DNA of 64,000 nucleotides from Gammaproteobacteria bacterium (GTDB lineage Bacteria > Pseudomonadota > Gammaproteobacteria > Ga0077536): assembly GCA_021773835.1 (NCBI GenBank), contig JAJFJQ010000073.1:1-64000 (forward strand), written 5' to 3'. Made by a program: the position numbers and the translations under genes. Below are positions 1-49,612 of the stretch, in pieces. How positions within the stretch are numbered: position 1 is the first letter of the stretch; each line of letters starts with the position of its first letter. The notes below the pieces were generated by a model, which saw nothing but the letters and a program-made list of their open reading frames with translations, was not told the DNA's origin and ran no database searches.

Positions 1-77
1 TCAGCTTCAGTTTTGATGCCTTTTGCGATCTCTTCGGCTAATGCACGGACCTTTGATTTGTCCATCGTTGCTTCCAT
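1..77 (-). CDS. IS256-family transposase, N-terminal fragment
   Basis: Twenty-five codons are visible, starting at an ATG at 77 preceded by a strong GAGGAG ribosome site at 85-90. The peptide contains the stretch ALAEEIAKGIKTEA, which resembles the start of IS256-family mutator-type transposases, where a KT(E/Q)xDL motif normally follows. The DDE catalytic core would lie outside the window. Whether the full gene is intact cannot be judged. A second in-frame ATG lies four codons in. Confidence 0.7.
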   Translation of the reverse strand, partial: MEATMDKSKVRALAEEIAKGIKTEA

Positions 78-112
78 GATTGTTCTCCTCTGATAGGATA
101 TTTAAAATCATG

Positions 113-143
113 GCCGCTTACACAATTTCGTGGACAGTCTCCC
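113..143. repeat. IS256-type terminal inverted repeat
   Basis: Read outward-in on the minus strand this is a GGGAGACTGTCCAC-type end followed by an AAATTGTGTAA segment, the usual composition of IS256-family ends. It lies between the transposase start and the broken repeat copy. The matching end and the 8-bp target duplication are outside the window. Confidence 0.65.
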
Positions 144-285
144 GGACAACGTGAGATGAGGTATCTACGTTCCCCTTTGATGGCTTCTTCGCCACTAGGC
201 TTTCTCAATGTGCATGTTATTTTCAAACTTAGTCGGATTTGTTCTTCGTATTCGGTCTTCAAGCTTAAAAATTTACTTAGACCCC
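144..285. repeat. MITE-like repeat, truncated copy (right half)
   Basis: This stretch aligns with the right halves of the repeats at 1519-1823 and 3023-3328. Shared blocks include ACAACG, GAGATGAGGTATCT, the ACTTAGTCGGATTTG segment (shared with the third copy) and a terminal ACCCC close to TTTACTCCGACCCC of the others. The left half is missing at the point where the IS256 terminus begins, so insertion of that element probably removed or displaced it. No coding function is seen. Confidence 0.65.
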
Positions 286-309
286 TTTTTCTCTTTTTCC
301 TACTCGTCT

Positions 310-798
310 CTAACCAAGCACTTTCTTTAGCCATGCTGCGGATTTCTTTTGCTGGCGTGGATCGACCTTTTCAGGGATCTCGGCAATGAGGTCCGAGAGC
401 GTGCAATTCATTAGAGATCCCCGCCACGCGGCGTCGGCGTTTGCAAACGCGGCTGCAATTCCACACGGGCGCCGATAACACTTTGAGCCAAGCGCACTAG
501 GTCCACGCTGACGGATTTCGGAGCAACGGAACGCCGGTCTTTTCCCGTCAATCGCATCAACTACGTCGAGCAAGGTGATCTGCTCGGTCGCTCGTGAAAG
601 ACGAAACCCACCACGGGGTCCAGGGATGGATTCCAATATGTTATCCCGAACTAACGCTTGCAGATGTTTTGTTAGGTATGCGGCCGGTATACCGTGAAAT
701 TCTGCCAAACGTTTTGCGGACAGTGTTCTGTCCGGCGGTAGCGAGGCTAATAGCGACAAACAGTGCACGGACCACTCTACGCCGCCACTCATTTTCAT
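310..798 (-). CDS. Rrf2-family transcriptional regulator
   Basis: A 162-residue protein with an N-terminal winged helix-turn-helix typical of Rrf2 regulators (LAEFHGIPAAYLTKHLQAL near residues 31-49, then PRGGFRL as the wing). Three cysteines follow (C92, C107, C112) in the context FRCSEIRQRGP...RPCGI. IscR and NsrR use three cysteines in this region to hold an Fe-S cluster, so a cluster or a redox thiol sensor is plausible, though spacing of the last two differs from IscR. The start at 798 is chosen because GAGGGG lies 7 bases upstream; a longer frame begins at 924 but would run through the operator. It is divergent from the RidA-like gene and three phased palindromes lie between them, suggesting autoregulation and control of that gene. 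Confidence 0.85.
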   Translation of the reverse strand: MKMSGGVEWSVHCLSLLASLPPDRTLSAKRLAEFHGIPAAYLTKHLQALVRDNILESIPGPRGGFRLSRATEQITLLDVVDAIDGKRPAFRCSEIRQRGPSALGSKCYRRPCGIAAAFANADAAWRGSLMNCTLSDLIAEIPEKVDPRQQKKSAAWLKKVLG

Positions 799-828
799 CG
801 TTGTCCCCTCGGTGTTTAGAGTTTGAAT

Positions 829-873
829 ATATCCTGGATATTTAATATCCTGGATATATAATATCCCGAATAT
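829..873. promoter_or_regulatory. Three phased palindromic operator sites
   Basis: Three 13-bp inverted repeats occur at 829-841, 845-857 and 861-873. The first two are identical, ATATCCTGGATAT, and the third is ATATCCCGAATAT. Their starts are exactly 16 bp apart. They lie in the AT-rich region between the divergent Rrf2 and RidA-like genes. Rrf2 regulators bind short dyads, so these are the likely operator; the match to this particular regulator is inferred from position only. Confidence 0.65.
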
Positions 874-993
874 AGTTCTAAGCAAAGCGCTATAACCCAA
901 TGTCAGAATGCGTGTCGTACGCAACCGAAAACTCGATTAACAGCTAATGCAAGGTGCCCGACCGGTATCAATCTTGCGGGCGAAGGAGTGACG

Positions 994-1497
994 ATGAAGA
1001 ACGCACTGTTAAATTTAATATTCCTCTTGACTCTGGTCGTAGCGAGCGTAAGCATCGCGGCGGAACGAACGAATAGGACGAACCCTTATCGCGAAATCGT
1101 CGAGGTTGGCGAGACGGAGTATTTCATGCCTTATGCATCGGCCGTGAGAGTAAAGGCCGGAGCGACACTTTTGTTTCTCTCGGGAGCGACGGCGCTGCCA
1201 ATCTATCACCAGCACCCGCACGAGCACGACAAACTCGATCCACCTATGGATGTTCGAGAACAAACGCGTTTGGTGATGGAAAACTTAAAAAAGATGCTCA
1301 ATGCGGCCAACGCCGATTTCTCGGACATTGTTCGAACAGATGTCTTCATTACCGATATGGAAGAACAAGACGCGATAGGTGAAGTGATGGGGAAATATTT
1401 CAAAGGCGATTTTCCGGCCAGCACATGGATTGGTGTGACCCGCCTCGTGGACCGACGCTTGAAACTCGAGATGAACGCCATTGTCGCCGTCGAGTAG
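994..1497 (+). CDS. Exported RidA-family (YjgF/UK114) protein
   Basis: A 167-residue protein: a hydrophobic signal peptide (residues 1 to about 24, ending VSIAAE) followed by one RidA domain. The C-terminal part shows the family pattern TRLVDRRLKLEMNAIVAVE, with an arginine at the position that binds carboxylate in RidA deaminases. Cytoplasmic RidA hydrolyses reactive enamine/imine intermediates; this copy appears exported, so its substrate is unknown. The ATG at 994 is preferred because AAGGAG (983-988) sits 5 bases upstream; a GTG at 988 overlaps that site. Divergent from the Rrf2 regulator and probably under its control. Confidence 0.8.
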   Translation: MKNALLNLIFLLTLVVASVSIAAERTNRTNPYREIVEVGETEYFMPYASAVRVKAGATLLFLSGATALPIYHQHPHEHDKLDPPMDVREQTRLVMENLKKMLNAANADFSDIVRTDVFITDMEEQDAIGEVMGKYFKGDFPASTWIGVTRLVDRRLKLEMNAIVAVE

Positions 1498-1518
1498 AAA
1501 TTATTGGGGCTAGTTAAT

Positions 1519-1823
1519 GGGGTCGGAGTCAATTTCGTTTTGGTTACGATACGCCGATGGTGGGTTATCAAAATAGACCTGAACGAATGACTGTCATGCT
1601 CTTAATCCGAGAGATTGCGACTTTCAAAATACCCGTGTTCGGCCGTAGTGTATAAATTTACAGGGCGTCCACCTCCGATTGCACAACGGGAGATGAGGTA
1701 TCTGCGATCCTGATTCTTGGCTTTCTTGCCATTACGGTTTCCCAATGTGGCCGTAACTACTTAATTTAGATGGACTTGCAACTCGTAACGGCGCGTTTAG
1801 GTTTAATTATTTACTCCGACCCC
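1519..1823. repeat. MITE-like repeat, complete copy
   Basis: A 305-bp element starting GGGGTCGGAGTCAATT and ending in the inverted counterpart TTTACTCCGACCCC. It matches the copy at 3023-3328 over its whole length, with many substitutions, and lies in the same orientation. It contains no convincing gene. It fills the space between the RidA-like gene and the arsenite transporter, just downstream of the 3' ends of both convergent genes. Short elements with ends of this kind are often mobilised by transposases encoded elsewhere; that link is inference. Confidence 0.7.
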
Positions 1824-1845
1824 TTTTTCCTTTTTCTTTTCGCGC

Positions 1846-2886
1846 CTAAATTTCAGCAACGGGAAATTTCCGTCGAGTTCGATTTGCTAAGACCACAAGT
1901 GACAACATCACGGGCACCTCGACTAATACACCGACAACCGTTGCCAGGGCGGCGCCACTGTCAAGACCAAAAAGACTAATTGCCACCGCCACCGCAAGCT
2001 CGAAGAAGTTCGAGGTCCCAATAAGTGCTGCAGGCGCGGCTATCTCGAAAGGTGTACGCCACAACCAAGCCCAGCCATAAGCGATAAAGAAAATCCCGTA
2101 GCTTTGGATCAACAGCGGTATTGCAATTAAGAAAATGACGAATGGTTGCTCGATAATACGTGGCCCTTGGAAACCAAATAACAATACAACCGTCGCGAGG
2201 AGACCGACGATCGTGAATGGCTTGAGCATCGCGCTAAAGGCGATTACGCGAGAAACATCTTCAACTCCATCTGTCAATGCTCGACGCGTGACAACTCCCG
2301 CAAGAAGCGGAATGACGACGTAAAGAAGTACCGAAAGAAATAGGGTTGACCATGGCACAATGACGTCGGCAATTCCCAACAGCAACGCAACAATGGGTGC
2401 GAACGCGAAAATCATAATGAGGTCGTTTACTGACACTTGGACGAGCGTATAAGTCGCATCGCCACTTACCAGTTGACTCCAGACGAAAACCATCGCGGTA
2501 CATGGTGCCGCTCCGAGTAGGATCATTCCGGCAATGTATTCACGCGCATCCACTGGATCGATCCACTCGTGGAAGAGTATCTCAAAAAAGAGGACTCCCA
2601 GACCTGCCATTGTCAGCGGCTTAATCAACCAATTAACAACAAGCGTTATTAGAAGGCCCTTAGGGCGATCTCCTATTCGGCGCAACGAAGCAAAATCAAC
2701 GTTCACCATCATCGGATAGATCATGACCCAAATGAGGACTGCGACGAGAAGATTTACACCGGCGAATTCTATGTTCGCGAGCGCGTCAAAACTTCCGGGA
2801 AATAATGCGCCAAGCATCATTCCGCCGCCAATGGCAAAAGCTATCCATAAGCTAAGATATCGCTCAAAGATTCCCATCAGCAGCAT
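1846..2886 (-). CDS. ACR3-family arsenite efflux transporter
   Basis: A 346-residue protein with about ten membrane segments. It carries the ACR3 signature [13 protein letters not shown] around residues 125-137, whose cysteine (about 129) is the conserved one needed for As(III) transport in this family. ACR3 pumps arsenite out of the cytoplasm using the proton gradient. No arsR, arsC or other ars gene is adjacent. The start at 2886 has AGGGG just upstream; a methionine three codons in is an alternative. The gene sits between two direct copies of the MITE-like repeat, suggesting it was acquired or moved with them. Confidence 0.88.
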
Positions 2887-3022
2887 GACCCCTATGTATA
2901 GTTTGTGGTCGAATCTTTATTCGAAAATTCCGGATTTACTACAAAAGCCTCAGAGTCTTCAAGCACCCGGTGCCTTTTCCGACGCAGCCAATCGGGCTCC
3001 TTTTAGCCAATGGGGTGCCAAT

Positions 3023-3328
3023 GGGGTCGGAGTCAATTACGTTTTGGTTATGATACGGCGACTTTTGGTCTTCAAGATAGAGCTACACGAATGGCAGTCG
3101 TGTCCATAATTCGAGAGACTGGGACTTTCAAGATATGCGAGGTCGACCATCGTGCATATAATCGCCGTACGAATCGTCCACGGTTGCACAACGAGAATTT
3201 CGATATGTGTGATCCCATCGCGTAGCTTCTTGACCGTTACGCTGCCTCAACGTGTTCGTTATTATCTGACTTAGTCGGATTTGCTAGCCGAAATCGATCT
3301 TACAAGTCTAATAATTTACTCCGACCCC
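3023..3328. repeat. MITE-like repeat, complete copy
   Basis: A 306-bp element with ends GGGGTCGGAGTCAATT and AATTTACTCCGACCCC, in direct orientation to the copy at 1519-1823. Immediately left is a partial echo (CCAATGGGGT at 3007-3016). The right end stops five bases before the stop codon of the luciferase-like gene at 3333, so the element abuts that gene and its terminal dyad may act in transcription termination. No coding content is supported. Confidence 0.7.
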
Positions 3329-3332
3329 ATTT

Positions 3333-4211
3333 TTAATTATTCGCTGGCGCCAAAGCCTCTAGTAAGTTCCAATCTACCCCCGGTTGACCATCGGGTCGAA
3401 TAGAATCGATTGCGAGATGATCGGCGCCCTTGTCGTAGTTTCCCTGCAAGCCGGCCTTGATTTGCTCTATATCGCCCCATACGACCAACGCATCAATTAG
3501 TCGATCGCTGCCCCCGTTTTCGAGGTCACTCGCGTCGAAGCCAAATCCCATCCATGCATTGGTGTAGTTTGGCAACGTGAAATACAGTGCTAAGGCCGCC
3601 CGCGCCGCCGCTCGCGCTTGTTGCGGATCTGGACTCATGCACACATGAATCATTGGACACACGACACGTGTTGGACCAACTTGTGCGCGCGCGATGGCTG
3701 CGTGCTCCGTGGTTACGTTGGCGGGCATCACGCCTAAGCTTCTTTCGCCGCCTAACTTCAGCATATTGGGGCCGAGTGCCGCCAAGATGATTTGTTTTTC
3801 CTGTGGTGTGTTGCCAAGCGATTCCCACGTTTTATCCATCGCATCCAGATATGCACGCATTGTAGTCACGGGTTTTTTATACTCGTGGCCGCGCAGATCG
3901 GAAACTAACGGCGCATGTGATACGCCGAGACCTAAAACGAAACGCCCCCCGTAAAGTGCATTTAGAGAATTGAGCCCCATCACCGACGCTGCAGCATCAC
4001 GGGCATAGATATTTGCGATTCCACTGGCAACAATTAGCGTCTTCGTTTGACTAAGCAGGAACCCACCGAGTGCCAATGCTTCGTAATGAAATGCTTCGGG
4101 ATACCAGAGGGTTGTGTATCCCAGGCGTTCAATACGTTGCGCCGATTCTGCCAATTCGTCAGGCCCGCAGGGGTCGGCATACATAAAGGCACCAAGTTTT
4201 CCGAAGTCCAT
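3333..4211 (-). CDS. LLM-class (possibly F420-dependent) oxidoreductase
   Basis: A 292-residue luciferase-like TIM-barrel protein. Family features include GYTTLWYPEA near the start, then GGRFVLGLGVSHAPLV and LAALGPNMLKL. Members use reduced F420 or FMN on a wide range of substrates; cofactor and substrate are not determinable here. The ATG at 4211 is preferred, with AAGGA nine bases upstream; an ATG three codons earlier sits directly on that site. The MaoC gene 83 bp upstream on the same strand may be co-transcribed. The 3' end abuts a repeat element. Confidence 0.8.
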   Translation of the reverse strand: MDFGKLGAFMYADPCGPDELAESAQRIERLGYTTLWYPEAFHYEALALGGFLLSQTKTLIVASGIANIYARDAAASVMGLNSLNALYGGRFVLGLGVSHAPLVSDLRGHEYKKPVTTMRAYLDAMDKTWESLGNTPQEKQIILAALGPNMLKLGGERSLGVMPANVTTEHAAIARAQVGPTRVVCPMIHVCMSPDPQQARAAARAALALYFTLPNYTNAWMGFGFDASDLENGGSDRLIDALVVWGDIEQIKAGLQGNYDKGADHLAIDSIRPDGQPGVDWNLLEALAPANN

Positions 4212-4294
4212 GAGCTGCATTCCTTGTGATTATTGAATTTCAAACAAAGTGTGAAACTCGGGTTGCTACGGAGCTGGCGATTACCAGCTGAGCA

Positions 4295-5155
4295 TTAGCG
4301 GGTACATACAAACCCTTGGTTGATTGCCGGCTTACCGTCCTCCGTAAGCACGCTATAGGCGATAAGGTCATCTTCGGTCGCATGCACCACTAAGGTAAGG
4401 TGTGACGGCATCGTTACCATAGCGCTGAAGCGCCCACCGAGGCGCGCGACTTGCGTCGAATCTCCGGCTAGGTACTGATCCACAATGGTCGAAATAGCGA
4501 GTGCCATTGTTGCGGTTCCATGCAAAATGATATCGGGTAGGCCAGCTTCGAGCGCTACTCGGCGATCAGTATGGACTGGATTCCAGATCCTTGCGCACTC
4601 GGTGTACACGTGGGCGGCCGCTTTCGATACTGGTATGACAAATCGTTGTTCGCCGCTCGATGATTTCGGTAGGCTCGGTAATGCAGGGGGATCTTCAACG
4701 AATTTTGGTTCGCCGATGATGTCGACGCCACGCTTGATTCCCAATTGATAGGTTCGGCAGACGAGTTCGCCGCTCTGGTCTACGGTGTCGAGTCGGATCG
4801 TTTGTGCCGCTCCAGGTCTTATTTGCTCGATGCCAACAATTTTTGCTGTTGTCGTGAGCTGGTCACCGACCTCTATTGCGCGGTAGATGTGTAGATCGTG
4901 GGCTGCATGAACATCGCGCCGACGTTCGTCAAGGGTGATGGATTCGCCGCCGGGGATTTTGGTGCAGTCCAATATTGCAGGCCATTCGAGACACACCGGA
5001 AACATTGGGTGGCCAATGACGGTATTTGCGTCAGTATCGAAGTATGCCGGGGCCGTATCACCAATCCCGGCTGCATAGGACATTAGCCAGCGCGCGTCTA
5101 TGTCATTAACGAATGCCTTGCTGGTTCCGCCAACCATAGCCGTACTGAATGGCAT
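4295..5155 (-). CDS. Double hot-dog MaoC-like hydratase family protein
   Basis: A 286-residue protein with an N-terminal MaoC_N-like half and a C-terminal MaoC half. The C-terminal signature reads ARIWNPVHTDRRVALEAG followed by ILHG near residues 190-220. Authentic R-specific enoyl-CoA hydratases have a catalytic Asp two residues before the Asn of the NPxH box; here that position is Ile, while the His is kept. It may be a non-hydratase acyl-binding or thioester-acting member. The gene precedes the luciferase-like oxidoreductase by 83 bp. No clear ribosome site is seen at this ATG; another lies six codons in. Confidence 0.75.
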   Translation of the reverse strand: MPFSTAMVGGTSKAFVNDIDARWLMSYAAGIGDTAPAYFDTDANTVIGHPMFPVCLEWPAILDCTKIPGGESITLDERRRDVHAAHDLHIYRAIEVGDQLTTTAKIVGIEQIRPGAAQTIRLDTVDQSGELVCRTYQLGIKRGVDIIGEPKFVEDPPALPSLPKSSSGEQRFVIPVSKAAAHVYTECARIWNPVHTDRRVALEAGLPDIILHGTATMALAISTIVDQYLAGDSTQVARLGGRFSAMVTMPSHLTLVVHATEDDLIAYSVLTEDGKPAINQGFVCTR

Positions 5156-6327: not shown

Positions 6328-8613
6328 TTAGAACTCCAATGGGTCGTCAGCAACACGCGATACGCCAGAGCGCATGGCGACCGGATTGACTTCACGGATG
6401 CTGTCCACCTGGAAGGTAAACTCATCGTCAACGCCCCAAAATTCCCGGAACTCGTTCATCCATTTTATCGAATGCGAACTCACGTCACGGTATATCTCGA
6501 GTGCGACGTCTGGTAGGTCGTAATCTTCGATACGTTTTTTCTGTGTCGCCATCCACTGGTCGACGGGTACGGCTTTCGTTTTGCGGGCATCGCGAATGGC
6601 CTGGCGTTTGGCGTCAGTTTTCTCGCGATCGATCGTATAGCGATCCTCTGCCGCATCGTGGTCAACCACGACACCGCAGATATTCTCAACCATCGAGGGC
6701 GTTACGATGCCGTTTTCGAAGTCCTTTTCGATCAAGCTGGGGTCGCGATCCAAGGGATCGCCAAAGCCGCCCATGCCGCGGTACTGCATCAAAAACACAT
6801 CGCCGTCCTTCATGGGTTTATCTGCGGTCATGTTGCCGTGTGAGACCGTAAGGTTGCCGGAGACGATTTTCGCGATGTCGGGATCCGTCGGATCAGGGCC
6901 TTCGCCAGTCGGCAGCTCCAGACCTTGCGCGATCCGTTCGTGCATATCGGTATCAGTCATCAGGTAGACGTAGTGAATCTTACCCGGATAGCCGCCGTAC
7001 AGGCCTTGATGATCAAACGCGCGCGCCTGACATAGCTCAGTCGTCAACACCATCTGATCTGATTTGTGCGTCATCAGACACGATTGCCAGCCGTTGCCGC
7101 CGCGGTATTTGCCGAAGCCGTGGGCGTTCGGCAAGATCTTGCGTGACAGATATAGCTGCGGGAAGAGCTGCTCCCAGATCTCCGCGTTACCCATATCGGA
7201 CTCTGGATTCCACAGCACGTAACCGAAGTCGATGCCGTCCGAGATCGCGCGTGCGCCTGAGCCTTGCGCCGCCAGTTCGAAGTTCGTGCCACCAAAGACC
7301 TTGCCGTATTGGTCAATACCGCCGGCGTCGTAGGCTGGCGTGAGTGCGCCGAACAGGAATGTTTCCTCAACGAAGCCACGCATATAAGTAGCGCGGCCCA
7401 TCATGCGATACCAATTCGCCCAACTCGGCATCACCAAATTCCAACCCAGTGAGGTCGAGGCGTACTTGTTGTCCGGCCATACCATTGTGCCTTTGGAGAA
7501 TTTGAGCTCACAACCCAAATAGCTACCGTGGTTGAGGCGGCCATCAAAATTCAAGGCCTGCGACAGCGACACAAACAAGCCACCCTCTAATGCAGCAGGG
7601 GTTCCGTTGCCAGCCCAGTAACGCCAAGAGCCGAAGCCATCGAAGTCGATAGTCATCTTGCCGTTACCGTCGATCACCATTTCCAGCGGTTCGATGATCG
7701 TGACGTTACCGTCGGCGAGGGGTGCCAGTCCTGCTGAACCCTCCATTATCTGATCACAGGTGGTTACTTCTTTGTACGTACCTGGGATGAGCATGGTTTT
7801 TACCCGCTCAAGCTGGGTACGTCGTGCGCCTTCAATGTATTCATTTGTCGCCTCTTTGTAATAATCGAGGCCGAACTCATCAATAGTCGCCAGCACTTCA
7901 TCGCGCGCGGATATCGCACCGGTGACGCGTGCCTTGGTATCCAGGATCCAGAGATCCGGCGAACGAACGCTGCGTTCAGCGCGGACTTCGTAGTGCTTGT
8001 ATATCTGATCATTTTCGCCAACTTTCTCAGCGCAAATGATCAGCCCTTCGGTGAACCGCTCAGAACACAGATTCGGCATGCTACCAGGTGTGATGCCGCC
8101 GACCTCGAGCACGTGGGTGACCATGCCGGTCCAGCCGATCAACTCCTCCCCGATGAAGATTGGGGTGACGTCCATCACGTCCGGGATATGCACGCCGCCG
8201 ATGTAGGTATCGTTATTCTCGAAGATGTCTCCCGGTTTGAAACCCGGAGAGATCTCATAATCATGTGCAAGCATCCATTTAATGAAGCGACTCATCGTAT
8301 GCACATGAACCATGATGCCGCCCGAGAACACAATTGAGTCGCCCTCAGGGGTGTAGAGGCCGACTACGGACTCACCGACTTCACGGGTGCCGGGCGAACA
8401 CGCCACCTTCGAGCCAATCTGCTGTGCGCCAATCACAGTGGACTGCAACCGTGAATAGAGTAATTCGTAGCGAATAACGTCTTGCTCAGCCAAGCGCATA
8501 TCCGCGACACCGTTATAGTGTCCGGTCTTCTTAAGCGTTTGCTTGGAGTTCTCTGCGCGTGCACGCAGTGAAATTTGGACCGCTGATTCGTCTAAGGGGA
8601 CGGCTGCACTCAT
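6328..8613 (-). CDS. acxB: Acetone carboxylase alpha subunit (hydantoinase B-like)
   Basis: 761 residues of the hydantoinase B/oxoprolinase fold, the length expected of acetone carboxylase alpha subunits. Recognisable blocks are GDIFENNDTYIGGVHIPDV near residue 130, GNGTPAALEGGLF near the middle and YRGMGGFGDPLDRDP near residue 615. In characterised enzymes this subunit holds the Mn site and joins the activated acetone enolate to CO2. The neighbouring small cysteine-containing gamma gene separates it from ordinary hydantoinases or acetophenone carboxylase. It lies 27 bp after the beta gene. Confidence 0.88.
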   Translation of the reverse strand: MSAAVPLDESAVQISLRARAENSKQTLKKTGHYNGVADMRLAEQDVIRYELLYSRLQSTVIGAQQIGSKVACSPGTREVGESVVGLYTPEGDSIVFSGGIMVHVHTMSRFIKWMLAHDYEISPGFKPGDIFENNDTYIGGVHIPDVMDVTPIFIGEELIGWTGMVTHVLEVGGITPGSMPNLCSERFTEGLIICAEKVGENDQIYKHYEVRAERSVRSPDLWILDTKARVTGAISARDEVLATIDEFGLDYYKEATNEYIEGARRTQLERVKTMLIPGTYKEVTTCDQIMEGSAGLAPLADGNVTIIEPLEMVIDGNGKMTIDFDGFGSWRYWAGNGTPAALEGGLFVSLSQALNFDGRLNHGSYLGCELKFSKGTMVWPDNKYASTSLGWNLVMPSWANWYRMMGRATYMRGFVEETFLFGALTPAYDAGGIDQYGKVFGGTNFELAAQGSGARAISDGIDFGYVLWNPESDMGNAEIWEQLFPQLYLSRKILPNAHGFGKYRGGNGWQSCLMTHKSDQMVLTTELCQARAFDHQGLYGGYPGKIHYVYLMTDTDMHERIAQGLELPTGEGPDPTDPDIAKIVSGNLTVSHGNMTADKPMKDGDVFLMQYRGMGGFGDPLDRDPSLIEKDFENGIVTPSMVENICGVVVDHDAAEDRYTIDREKTDAKRQAIRDARKTKAVPVDQWMATQKKRIEDYDLPDVALEIYRDVSSHSIKWMNEFREFWGVDDEFTFQVDSIREVNPVAMRSGVSRVADDPLEF

Positions 8614-41571: not shown

Positions 41572-42384
41572 ATGCGTCTATTCTTGATTCTAATATTTAC
41601 CGCGAGCCTTGGGTTTTTACCGACTGCTAGCGCCGACACGGCAGCGTCCATCGTTAGCGCAGCGAGCGGTACGCACCGTAGCGCGGATAACATCAAACGC
41701 AATGAGTGGCGCCATCCAGTCGAGACGCTGACGTTTTTTGGTTTGTCAGATGACATGACCGTAGTCGAAATCTGGCCGGGTGGCCGCGGTTGGTACACTG
41801 AAGTACTCGCTCCGGTCCTACGCGAGAACGGCAAGCTGTATGCAGCAAACTATGACGGTAGTACTGGTCGCGAGTATTTCACGCGCAACGCCAAAGCCTT
41901 TAGAAATAAACTTGCCGAGCAACCTGGCATCTATGACCGCGTCGTGATCACCGCGTTGATGCCGCCAGCTTCCACGGAACCCGCGCCAAAGGGCAGTGCG
42001 GACATGGTGCTCAGTTTTAGGAGTCTACACAATTGGATCCGCGATGGCATCGATGGGCAAATGTTGAAAGCGATCCACGAGGTGCTTAAACCAGGTGGTG
42101 TGCTCGGGCTCGTCGCCCATCGAGGCAACCCAGAGATGGTCGGGGTCGAATGGGCACGAAAAGGCTATGTGTCACAGGCGGAGGCGATCCGAATTGCAAC
42201 TGCCGCGGGATTTGATTTCGTCGGTAGCAGCGAGATCAATGCCAACTCGAATGATACGAAAGACTACCCCGATGGGGTATGGACCTTACCGCCGAGCTTC
42301 CGTCTTGGGGAGACCGACAAAGATAAATACCAAGCCATCGGCGAAAGCGATAGGATGACACTAAAATTTGTTAAAGCCCCCTAG
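41572..42384 (+). CDS. Exported class I methyltransferase-like protein
   Basis: 270 residues: a cleavable signal peptide (FLILIFTASLGFLPTASA) before a methyltransferase fold with VVEIWPGGRGWYTEVLAP as the SAM loop, MVLSFRSLHNWI as motif IV and GGVLGLVAHRG beyond. It matches a family of predicted exported methyltransferases. SAM is not expected in the periplasm, so either the enzyme binds something else or it works before export. GGAG precedes the ATG. It follows the DUF1501 gene by 56 bp. Confidence 0.8.
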   Translation: MRLFLILIFTASLGFLPTASADTAASIVSAASGTHRSADNIKRNEWRHPVETLTFFGLSDDMTVVEIWPGGRGWYTEVLAPVLRENGKLYAANYDGSTGREYFTRNAKAFRNKLAEQPGIYDRVVITALMPPASTEPAPKGSADMVLSFRSLHNWIRDGIDGQMLKAIHEVLKPGGVLGLVAHRGNPEMVGVEWARKGYVSQAEAIRIATAAGFDFVGSSEINANSNDTKDYPDGVWTLPPSFRLGETDKDKYQAIGESDRMTLKFVKAP

Positions 42385-48427: not shown

Positions 48428-49612
48428 TCAATCTGGATACAAGGCGCACGCATCGTAACCGTAAATCCAGCTTGATTTGGCGAAGCCGCCACCGTCGCCG
48501 CGTTCAGCAATATCGCCGCCGCGGCCGACAGCGTGGGTGATCTGTCCCTGTTCCCAGGCCCCGATTTGAATCTTCCCGGTGCGCTCTAAGCGCGCTTCCT
48601 CGTAGGCTTTAAGCGCCTTCCCCGGGTCACTGGGGTGTGCCGATAAATAGTGGGCCACCACCCATGCATCCTCTATTGCCATCACGGACCCCTGGGCCAA
48701 GTAAGGCACCATTGGGTGGGCGGCATCACCGAGCAATGTTGTGCGAGCCGTAGACCAAGCCGGTAACGGATCGCGCATCAGCAGTGCCCATTTATAACAC
48801 TGTCCCTGCTGCGTGTGGTCGATGATCGTCTGTACCGTTGGATTCCAATCCTTGAACTGGTCAGCGAGATCGGCCTTGTTCGCTTGGGTGGTCCAACTTT
48901 CCGTTTCCCAACCATCTTCTTCCGTGAGCGCGACATAATTTAGCAACTCGCCACGGCGAACGTAGTAGGCGACGACATGCGCGCCGGGTCCGGCCCAGAG
49001 ATTCATTTTTGGTTCCACGAGATCCGGTTCGAGATCGTCGACCGAAACCATACCGCGGTACGCGACATGTCCGGTAAAACGCGCATCGGGATCACTGTGT
49101 AGCAATGTGCGTACCGTCGAATGCACGCCATCGGCACCGACGACAACAGGTTCGCGGACTTCACTGCCGTCCTCGAATACCAACGTAACGCCGTCTTTGT
49201 CTTCTGTGAGAGCAGTCAATCGTTTGCCGACTGCAATGCAATCTTGATCGTTCCGTTCGACGGCATCCAGCAGCATCTTATGCAGGTCTGCTCGATGAAA
49301 TCCGTAGAAAGGCGCACCGAAGGTTTTAATGAAATCTCCGGTAAACGGATTTTCAAAGAACGGCTTACCAGTTTCGAAATGGCGCAATGCGAGCGCCTCC
49401 GGCTGAAACCGGATGGCTTCGATCTCGTCGTTAAGACCTAAGGCATAGAGCACCTTCATGCCATTAGGACTCAAGTGCAGGCCGGCTCCAATCTCGCCGA
49501 GTTGGCTCGATTGTTCGTAGACTCGCACCCCGATACCGCGATGCTGTAAAGCTAGCGCCGCCGTAAGGCCGCCGATGCCGGCGCCGATGATGGTTACTTT
49601 GGCCGCTGCCAA
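48428..49612 (-). CDS. FAD-dependent aromatic monooxygenase
   Basis: 394 residues of the salicylate / 3-hydroxybenzoate hydroxylase type. The N-terminal GAGIGGLTAALAL binds FAD, VVGADGVHSTVR (about 158) is the DG motif, and LLGDAAHPMVPYLAQGSVMA (about 295) contacts the flavin ribityl. It would hydroxylate an aromatic acid with NAD(P)H and oxygen. A fumarylacetoacetate hydrolase-family gene lies 1.4 kb away but the pathway is not evident. Confidence 0.85.
   Translation of the reverse strand: MAAAKVTIIGAGIGGLTAALALQHRGIGVRVYEQSSQLGEIGAGLHLSPNGMKVLYALGLNDEIEAIRFQPEALALRHFETGKPFFENPFTGDFIKTFGAPFYGFHRADLHKMLLDAVERNDQDCIAVGKRLTALTEDKDGVTLVFEDGSEVREPVVVGADGVHSTVRTLLHSDPDARFTGHVAYRGMVSVDDLEPDLVEPKMNLWAGPGAHVVAYYVRRGELLNYVALTEEDGWETESWTTQANKADLADQFKDWNPTVQTIIDHTQQGQCYKWALLMRDPLPAWSTARTTLLGDAAHPMVPYLAQGSVMAIEDAWVVAHYLSAHPSDPGKALKAYEEARLERTGKIQIGAWEQGQITHAVGRGGDIAERGDGGGFAKSSWIYGYDACALYPD

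Follow-up and report, generated by a model that had tools for sequence, protein, structure and literature searches.

Repetitive sequences tied to transposases of the Y1 type have been described in several forms. The closest to the present case are the TIRYT transposases and the TIRtrons, both named by Di Nocera et al. (2013; PMC3733652); 20 of 26 TIRYT were placed in subclass 2.1 (Quentin et al., 2018; PMC6006769), and a C-terminal extension resembling helix-turn-helix (HTH) domains belongs to their published description. RAYTs have been described as well (PMC2817692), and one report states that there is no evidence of mobility of the tnpAREP gene (PMC8266576). Bertels and Rainey (2011; PMC3116915) put forward, as one possibility, that REPINs descend from sequences flanking an ancestral IS200-like element, and in Haloquadratum, PATEs and core-deleted IS605-type elements are known (PMC3119063). 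Here, we analyze a family of ~305-bp repeats with inverted ends in the first 64,000 nucleotides (hereafter the window) of contig JAJFJQ010000073.1 from a Gammaproteobacteria bacterium of the lineage Ga0077536 (GCA_021773835.1). It is highly probable that these repeats are old miniature inverted-repeat transposable elements (MITEs) of a TIRtron, produced by one internal deletion, and that the parent type survives in the same genome.

The Parent Element and Its Transposase

A profile search of the genome gives a single match to Y1_Tnp, at C48:48236-48568 (contigs are numbered with a C, the window contig being C71). It lies in an open frame of 231 amino acids enclosed by an 818-bp element, C48:48111-48928, and the exact end motif, GGGGTCGGAGTAAATT, flanks this frame at C48:48111 on the plus strand and at 48913 on the minus strand. 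Working from the letters of the window alone, the first-pass annotation had likened the ends of the repeats to those of small elements moved by HUH-type transposases, and had advised a search for a full-length element with the same ends that encodes a Y1-type or DDE transposase; the likeness is supported, as the only Y1_Tnp gene found in the genome sits between such ends. The transposase scores 51.2 bits with Pfam Y1_Tnp (cut-off 23) and has NHVH at residue 59, WEG at 99 and YIELNP at 120; H60, H62, Y120, N124 and P125 are invariant across 13 aligned relatives, in which the ~90-110 residues following the tyrosine motif also align. By these motifs the parent protein carries the class 2 HUH and tyrosine (Y---NP) signatures of TIRYT, an assignment made with Pfam Y1_Tnp and motif positions rather than with the hidden Markov model of the TIRYT authors.

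The size of this Y1 transposase (231 residues, against a given median of 238), the combination of NHVH and YIELNP, the position of the gene between GGGG-type inverted repeats and the presence of an additional family of end repeats in the genome all resemble what the accessible parts of the TIRYT and TIRtron papers describe (PMC3733652; PMC6006769). The case differs in that the extra copies are mostly deletion derivatives with the start of the gene, whereas only single, paired or grouped terminal inverted repeats (TIRs) are described there, and in that the ends read GGGGTCGG, whereas GGGGWSAS is stated in those parts for some or most elements, not all. With canonical IS200/IS605 elements (subclass 1.1), the parent shares the Y1_Tnp fold family and the expectation of no target duplication, but it has YIELNP instead of YxxxQ, inverted terminal repeats and one gene copy; its protein reaches 26.8 bits with the NCBIfam IS200 model, below the cut-off of 55. 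The best explanation of the parent element appears to be a TIRtron with a transposase resembling TIRYT, in subclass 2.1 of Quentin et al.

The Repeats as Probable Internal-Deletion Derivatives

The ~300-bp repeats match bp 1-270 of the parent plus its last 30-40 bp, antisense to the orientation in which the first-pass annotation had read them. All ten uninterrupted full copies align to the parent with one common gap at ~bp 273-789, a loss of ~517 bp that starts at codon 60, within the NHVH motif, and ends shortly beyond the stop codon; the most diverged copies leave some doubt about the precise base of the junction. Thus the repeats retain the leader and the first 60 codons of the parent, and lack the HUH and tyrosine codons that follow codon 60. 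Independently, a search at the protein level recovered the N-terminus of the transposase from copies on C32, C41, C68, C18 and C7. A 611-bp element, C18:177573-178183, holds an N-terminal stretch together with residues 165-225, and therefore represents a smaller, different deletion. As in MITEs, no functional transposase gene is present inside the ~305-bp repeats, and they are short, multi-copy and provided with inverted ends common to a larger coding element of the same genome; the description of the repeats as an old, non-autonomous element in the first-pass annotation was apt in this respect. PATEs of Haloquadratum are similar in that internal deletion makes Y1-type elements short, non-coding and possibly still mobile, but they are listed in the accessible part of the paper without terminal inverted repeats and with near-terminal palindromes, and they belong to another transposon subclass in an archaeal host (PMC3119063).

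Two complete copies and half of a third lie in the window, where the strand of a copy is the sense of the lost transposase gene:

1..141, minus strand: end of a Mutator/IS256-type insertion sequence and start of its transposase gene; the contig starts here
142..149: probable 8-bp target duplication of this insertion sequence, CCGGACAA; second copy on C55
142..285, minus strand: right half of probable MITE copy 3, split by the insertion sequence; left half is C55:142-313
270..285, minus strand: inverted end of copy 3, two mismatches
1519..1823 (305 bp), minus strand: probable MITE copy 1
1519..1534, plus strand: inverted end of copy 1, GGGGTCGGAGTCAATT
1808..1823, minus strand: inverted end of copy 1, one mismatch
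1557..1732, minus strand: degraded transposase codons 1-60 of copy 1, with stops and a length change; coordinates read from the sequence
3023..3328 (306 bp), minus strand: probable MITE copy 2, 70% identity to copy 1
3023..3038, plus strand: inverted end of copy 2
3313..3328, minus strand: inverted end of copy 2
3061..3237, minus strand: degraded transposase codons 1-60 of copy 2; coordinates read from the sequence

Copies 1 and 2 have GGGGTCGGAGT at one end and ACTCCGACCCC at the opposite end, and they match end to end in the same orientation (E 4.4e-32), just as the first-pass annotation had recognized. It had also reported a half copy at 144-285; this is a real partial copy, but the repeat starts at about 142 and is most likely one half of a copy split by an insertion, with its left half on C55. 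CCGGACAA is present at both junctions, on the window contig and on C55, and the two halves add up to a complete repeat (172+144-8 = 308 bp). The sequence of window bases 1-141 recurs with 100% identity at C41:1-141 and at the end of C20. C47:118785-118926 matches bases 1-142 at 97%, and a 408-amino-acid Transposase_mut gene begins at that site (Pfam 400.9 bits); therefore the window contig starts inside an insertion sequence. It is of the Mutator/IS256 type, and IS256 makes an 8-bp target duplication. The simplest reading is that a complete ~308-bp repeat was broken by such an insertion, and the common 8-bp duplication suggests that C55 and C71 adjoin in the genome. Stretches of this insertion sequence lie at window 1-141, C41:1-141, the end of C20, C47:118785-118926 and C55:1-141; it breaks the assembly, as several contigs start or stop inside it.

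In the 6.14-Mb genome, the exact 16-mer GGGGTCGGAGTNAATT occurs 26 times and its reversed control never; with up to two mismatches the end motif gives 65 occurrences versus 14 for the control. The 64-kb window taken alone is less striking, with six occurrences at up to three mismatches, a number reached by one of 100 shuffles. A model built from the sequences of the ten copies has 24 matches in the genome (E ≤ 0.001; 150 of 896 first-look candidates scored), one being a reverse reading of C32:156-464 and another the parent. Copies are thus present at other loci with common boundaries, and neither of the outcomes that the first-pass annotation had named as fatal to its view, copies at this locus only or an alignment with no shared boundaries, was encountered. 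Shorter two-ended forms of 203 bp (C21), 189 bp (C38, n = 2), 106 bp (C47, n = 2) and 45 bp (C32:27688-27732) were also found, the last consisting of two inverted ends that fold as a single hairpin. This 45-bp hairpin and the tie between repeats and a Y1-type gene recall REPINs and the REP-RAYT system, as far as the available parts of the papers go (PMC3116915; PMC2817692). In contrast to that system, the ends here have no GTAG head (there is no GT(A/G)G followed by a palindrome, and GGGGTCGGAGTNAATT is found in both orientations), the copies hold gene remnants, and there are about 20 of them rather than hundreds.

Single ends are also arranged in tandem, in units of ~21-39 bp, at C55:298-338, C48:43405-43441, C48:48913-48955 and C32:1056-1110. 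The transposase locus L066 of a relative has tandem single ends at 1425-1457 and 2262-2360, with five copies on one side. At C7:124979-125135, a half copy directly adjoins a full copy in the same orientation. Near family members there are other local duplications, C38:5510-6071 and 7000-7559 (73% over 564 bp), as well as a tandem duplication, C48:42014-42204 and 42191-42381 (82% over 191 bp).

Related Elements in Other Genomes

An alignment scan gave 590 named loci with related transposases, of which the best 80 (45-57% identity) were considered; two of these, L130 and L142, were dropped as too near contig ends, leaving 78 for the flank test. A single-protein scan of the named genomes found no relative. 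The flanks of the related genes have an inverted-repeat score of at least 11 in 59 of the 78 loci (control, 1), and the motif stands on both sides in 50 (control, 2). Upstream of the genes, GGGGWSAS is found in 50 cases, GGGGWCGG alone in seven and neither in 21.

In a search of 58 genomes, the own one among them, with 30 candidates scored per genome, the copy model matches only the own genome, as does the exact motif, while a related transposase is present in 36 of the 58. Derivatives were looked for in three genomes and found in two. That of Electrothrix aarhusensis keeps both ends, the part through and past NHVHLL, and the C-terminal end. A Pseudomonadales metagenome-assembled genome has a 154-bp derivative 1.4 kb from a full unit in the same orientation, together with four pairs of inverted ends, 72-76 bp long, elsewhere in the genome. 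In the third, Rheinheimera oceanensis, 15 of 16 matches fall within ~12 kb of one contig, several of them being one palindromic end read on both strands; two full units, with ~6 kb between them, are 97% identical over 782 bp, the match reaching from one inverted end to the other, and tandemly repeated ends lie alongside them.

Clusters of Co-Oriented Copies

The 21 placed members, including the parent, form ten adjacent pairs within 12 kb, whereas 0.81 are expected and the highest number in 5000 random placements is five. Orientation is the same in all ten pairs (chance 0.001 if independent); for this count the reverse reading C32:158-463 and the abutting partials C32:1050 and C7:124979 were left out, C55 was merged with C71:132, and C38:5304 was added. 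Two solo ends on C68 (149847 and 152454), which are not model matches, would give 11 of 12. In a tree of the copies, each of the two complete window copies has the other as its closest neighbor (support 0.957), and the same holds for the C7 copies at 113106 and 124674 (0.936); the two from C32 form a group (0.703) and join C41 (0.998).

Such clustering, the common orientation of mates, the tandem single ends at several copies and the half copy adjoining a full one would be accounted for if the copies had spread through ordinary segmental or tandem duplication and recombination instead of transposition. We nevertheless consider this improbable. Homology between cluster mates ends 3-13 bp outside GGGG, except in two alignments, where it runs on for 25-26 bp at the right (in the window pair this extension is T-rich), and the flanks are unrelated even where the interiors of a pair are 85-87% identical (C32 and C47), so segmental duplication of the clusters seems unlikely; the match of the two Rheinheimera units spans the unit between its inverted ends. 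As the homology of most neighboring pairs extends beyond GGGG, the element itself probably reaches 3-8 bp outside GGGG on each side. Co-oriented neighbors with unrelated flanks suggest local, strand-biased insertion. Plain skew as a test of replication-strand bias is confounded by gene direction; gene-corrected GC skew agrees with copy orientation on eight of 12 contigs (eight of 11 when C55 and C71 count as a single locus), several of the values being within one standard error of zero.

Decay of the Copies

Between copies, differences summed over pairs are about equal at the three codon positions (1058, 1156 and 1120), whereas between the parent and the copies they are highest at position 3 (177, 193 and 274). 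This combination fits selection on the line of the parent and none on the copies. Identity between copies is 94% in the ends and 54-58% in the interiors, a contrast that is partly ascertainment as the copies were found largely by their ends.

A conserved function of the repeats, as structured RNA, regulatory DNA or a small peptide, with mobility past or incidental, is very unlikely, although their constant length near 300 bp, the better conservation of ends than interior (0.94 vs 0.54-0.58) and their intergenic sites, near stop codons in the window, could be read in this way. A coding role for the remnant frames was rejected on the even codon-position substitution and the stops in several copies, although a few retain an open frame. 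Conserved RNA structure was also rejected: none of 22 predicted consensus pairs has a change on both sides, and window positions 1-5000 give no Rfam match at E ≤ 1. A single founding deletion accounts for the constant length.

The genes beside the window copies match Pfam Rrf2 and Ribonuc_L-PSP (the Rrf2-RidA pair) and SBF (the pump). The repeats had been said to bracket these two modules; they do lie beside them, but there is no sign that they bracket or move them jointly, and they look like intergenic insertions. A search for an empty site within the genus led to the LLM-gene orthologue of G001 (locus L170), whose flanks encode no counterpart of the remaining four window proteins. The stretch that separates the divergent Rrf2-type and RidA-type genes, window 822-881, is A-T rich with repeated ATATCC units and 79% self-complementary, and is likely an operator or promoter region.

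The Ends and the Insertion Site

No direct repeat longer than 3 bp is found at the GGGG border in any of 18 elements, and no fixed offset of up to 12 bp gives a repeat of at least 4 bp in more than three of them; hence the fixed-length target-site duplication of the DDE type was not detected in this set. When the border may shift by up to 12 bp, the longest flank repeat averages 3.67, versus 3.15 with shuffled partners (3.67 was also the highest value among 200 shuffles); the longest of all, 8 bp at C48:43426, falls within sequence resembling another end. Since the true border may lie outside GGGG, where there is this slight excess, a short and variable target duplication may still occur. Inverted repeats of 11-16 bp are usual in DDE-type MITEs, and these together with the slight excess of flank repeats are what would speak for an origin of the MITEs from a DDE transposon that has these ends, with the Y1 gene as a passenger; this is the least probable explanation of all given the missing duplication at the border and at any fixed offset, the part of the Y1 gene inside the copies and the same kind of ends at related Y1 genes elsewhere.

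At the related loci, where the upstream motif is present in 65 of 78, the bases that immediately precede GGGG are complementary to those 13 nt inward more often than in permutations (197 pairs vs 154.6, z 5.2, 61 distinct stems, with a permutation that does not fully remove relatedness). A loop length of 14 has z 2.3 and no other length of 8-18 exceeds 1.2; at least five of six stem pairs are formed in only 14 of the 65 loci. Most ends of the own genome pair at just two or three positions, which is no more than permutation gives. We therefore put forward a hairpin whose loop contains GGGG as a suggestion and do not count it among the results.

Several points weigh against the TIRtron interpretation. 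The parent protein scores 71.3 bits with the NCBIfam model of the REP-associated tyrosine transposase, below the cut-off of 80, and Pfam finds no HTH domain in the C-terminal part of any of the 13 proteins at E ≤ 10. The parent's own ends are one base off the published GGGGWSAS, and its Y1 gene is single-copy in the genome. No empty site was found and movement was not observed. The absence of a duplication is clear only at the GGGG border, the movable border showing a slight, non-positional excess of short repeats. The partial scoring in the census and the ascertainment behind the contrast of ends and interiors must be added to these.

A Proposed Path from Transposon to Dispersed Repeat

The following scheme could account for the family. 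An ancestor consisting of an inverted end, a Y1/HUH transposase gene and a second inverted end, today represented by C48:48111-48928, would have lost ~517 bp of its middle to give a ~300-bp product with both ends. This product would then have been multiplied by the transposase in trans while its interior decayed. The transposase would act on single-stranded ends, which may fold as weak hairpins with a 13-nt loop starting with GGGG. Its cutting and rejoining would leave no consistent target duplication, and new copies would often land close to the donor and on its strand. In this scheme we infer catalysis, a single-stranded intermediate, action in trans, recent activity and movement.

Elements of this kind are known. 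Gene-bearing deletion derivatives of TIRtrons were not seen in the literature searched, which covered few subscription journals and which we had in part; new here are these derivatives, the graded sizes that end in a REPIN-like doublet, and the local clustering of copies in one orientation. More tentatively, and with less than even confidence, we propose that whole TIRtrons are mobile, that the series of 818, 611, ~305, 203/189, 106 and 45 bp may be the shrinkage of a Y1 transposon to REPIN-like repeats, and that landing in the same orientation near the donor may be short-range insertion into one single-stranded arm of the replication fork.

One genome holds a full TIRYT-class element, a partly deleted one, many derivatives in which the beginning of the gene persists, and a hairpin made of two ends alone, and thus the path proposed for REPINs is visible in steps, in TIRYT, the sister class to TnpAREP. 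The co-oriented local clusters offer a simple test of single-strand, fork-linked insertion. The family is a modest but useful clue to the origin of dispersed bacterial repeats from transposons.

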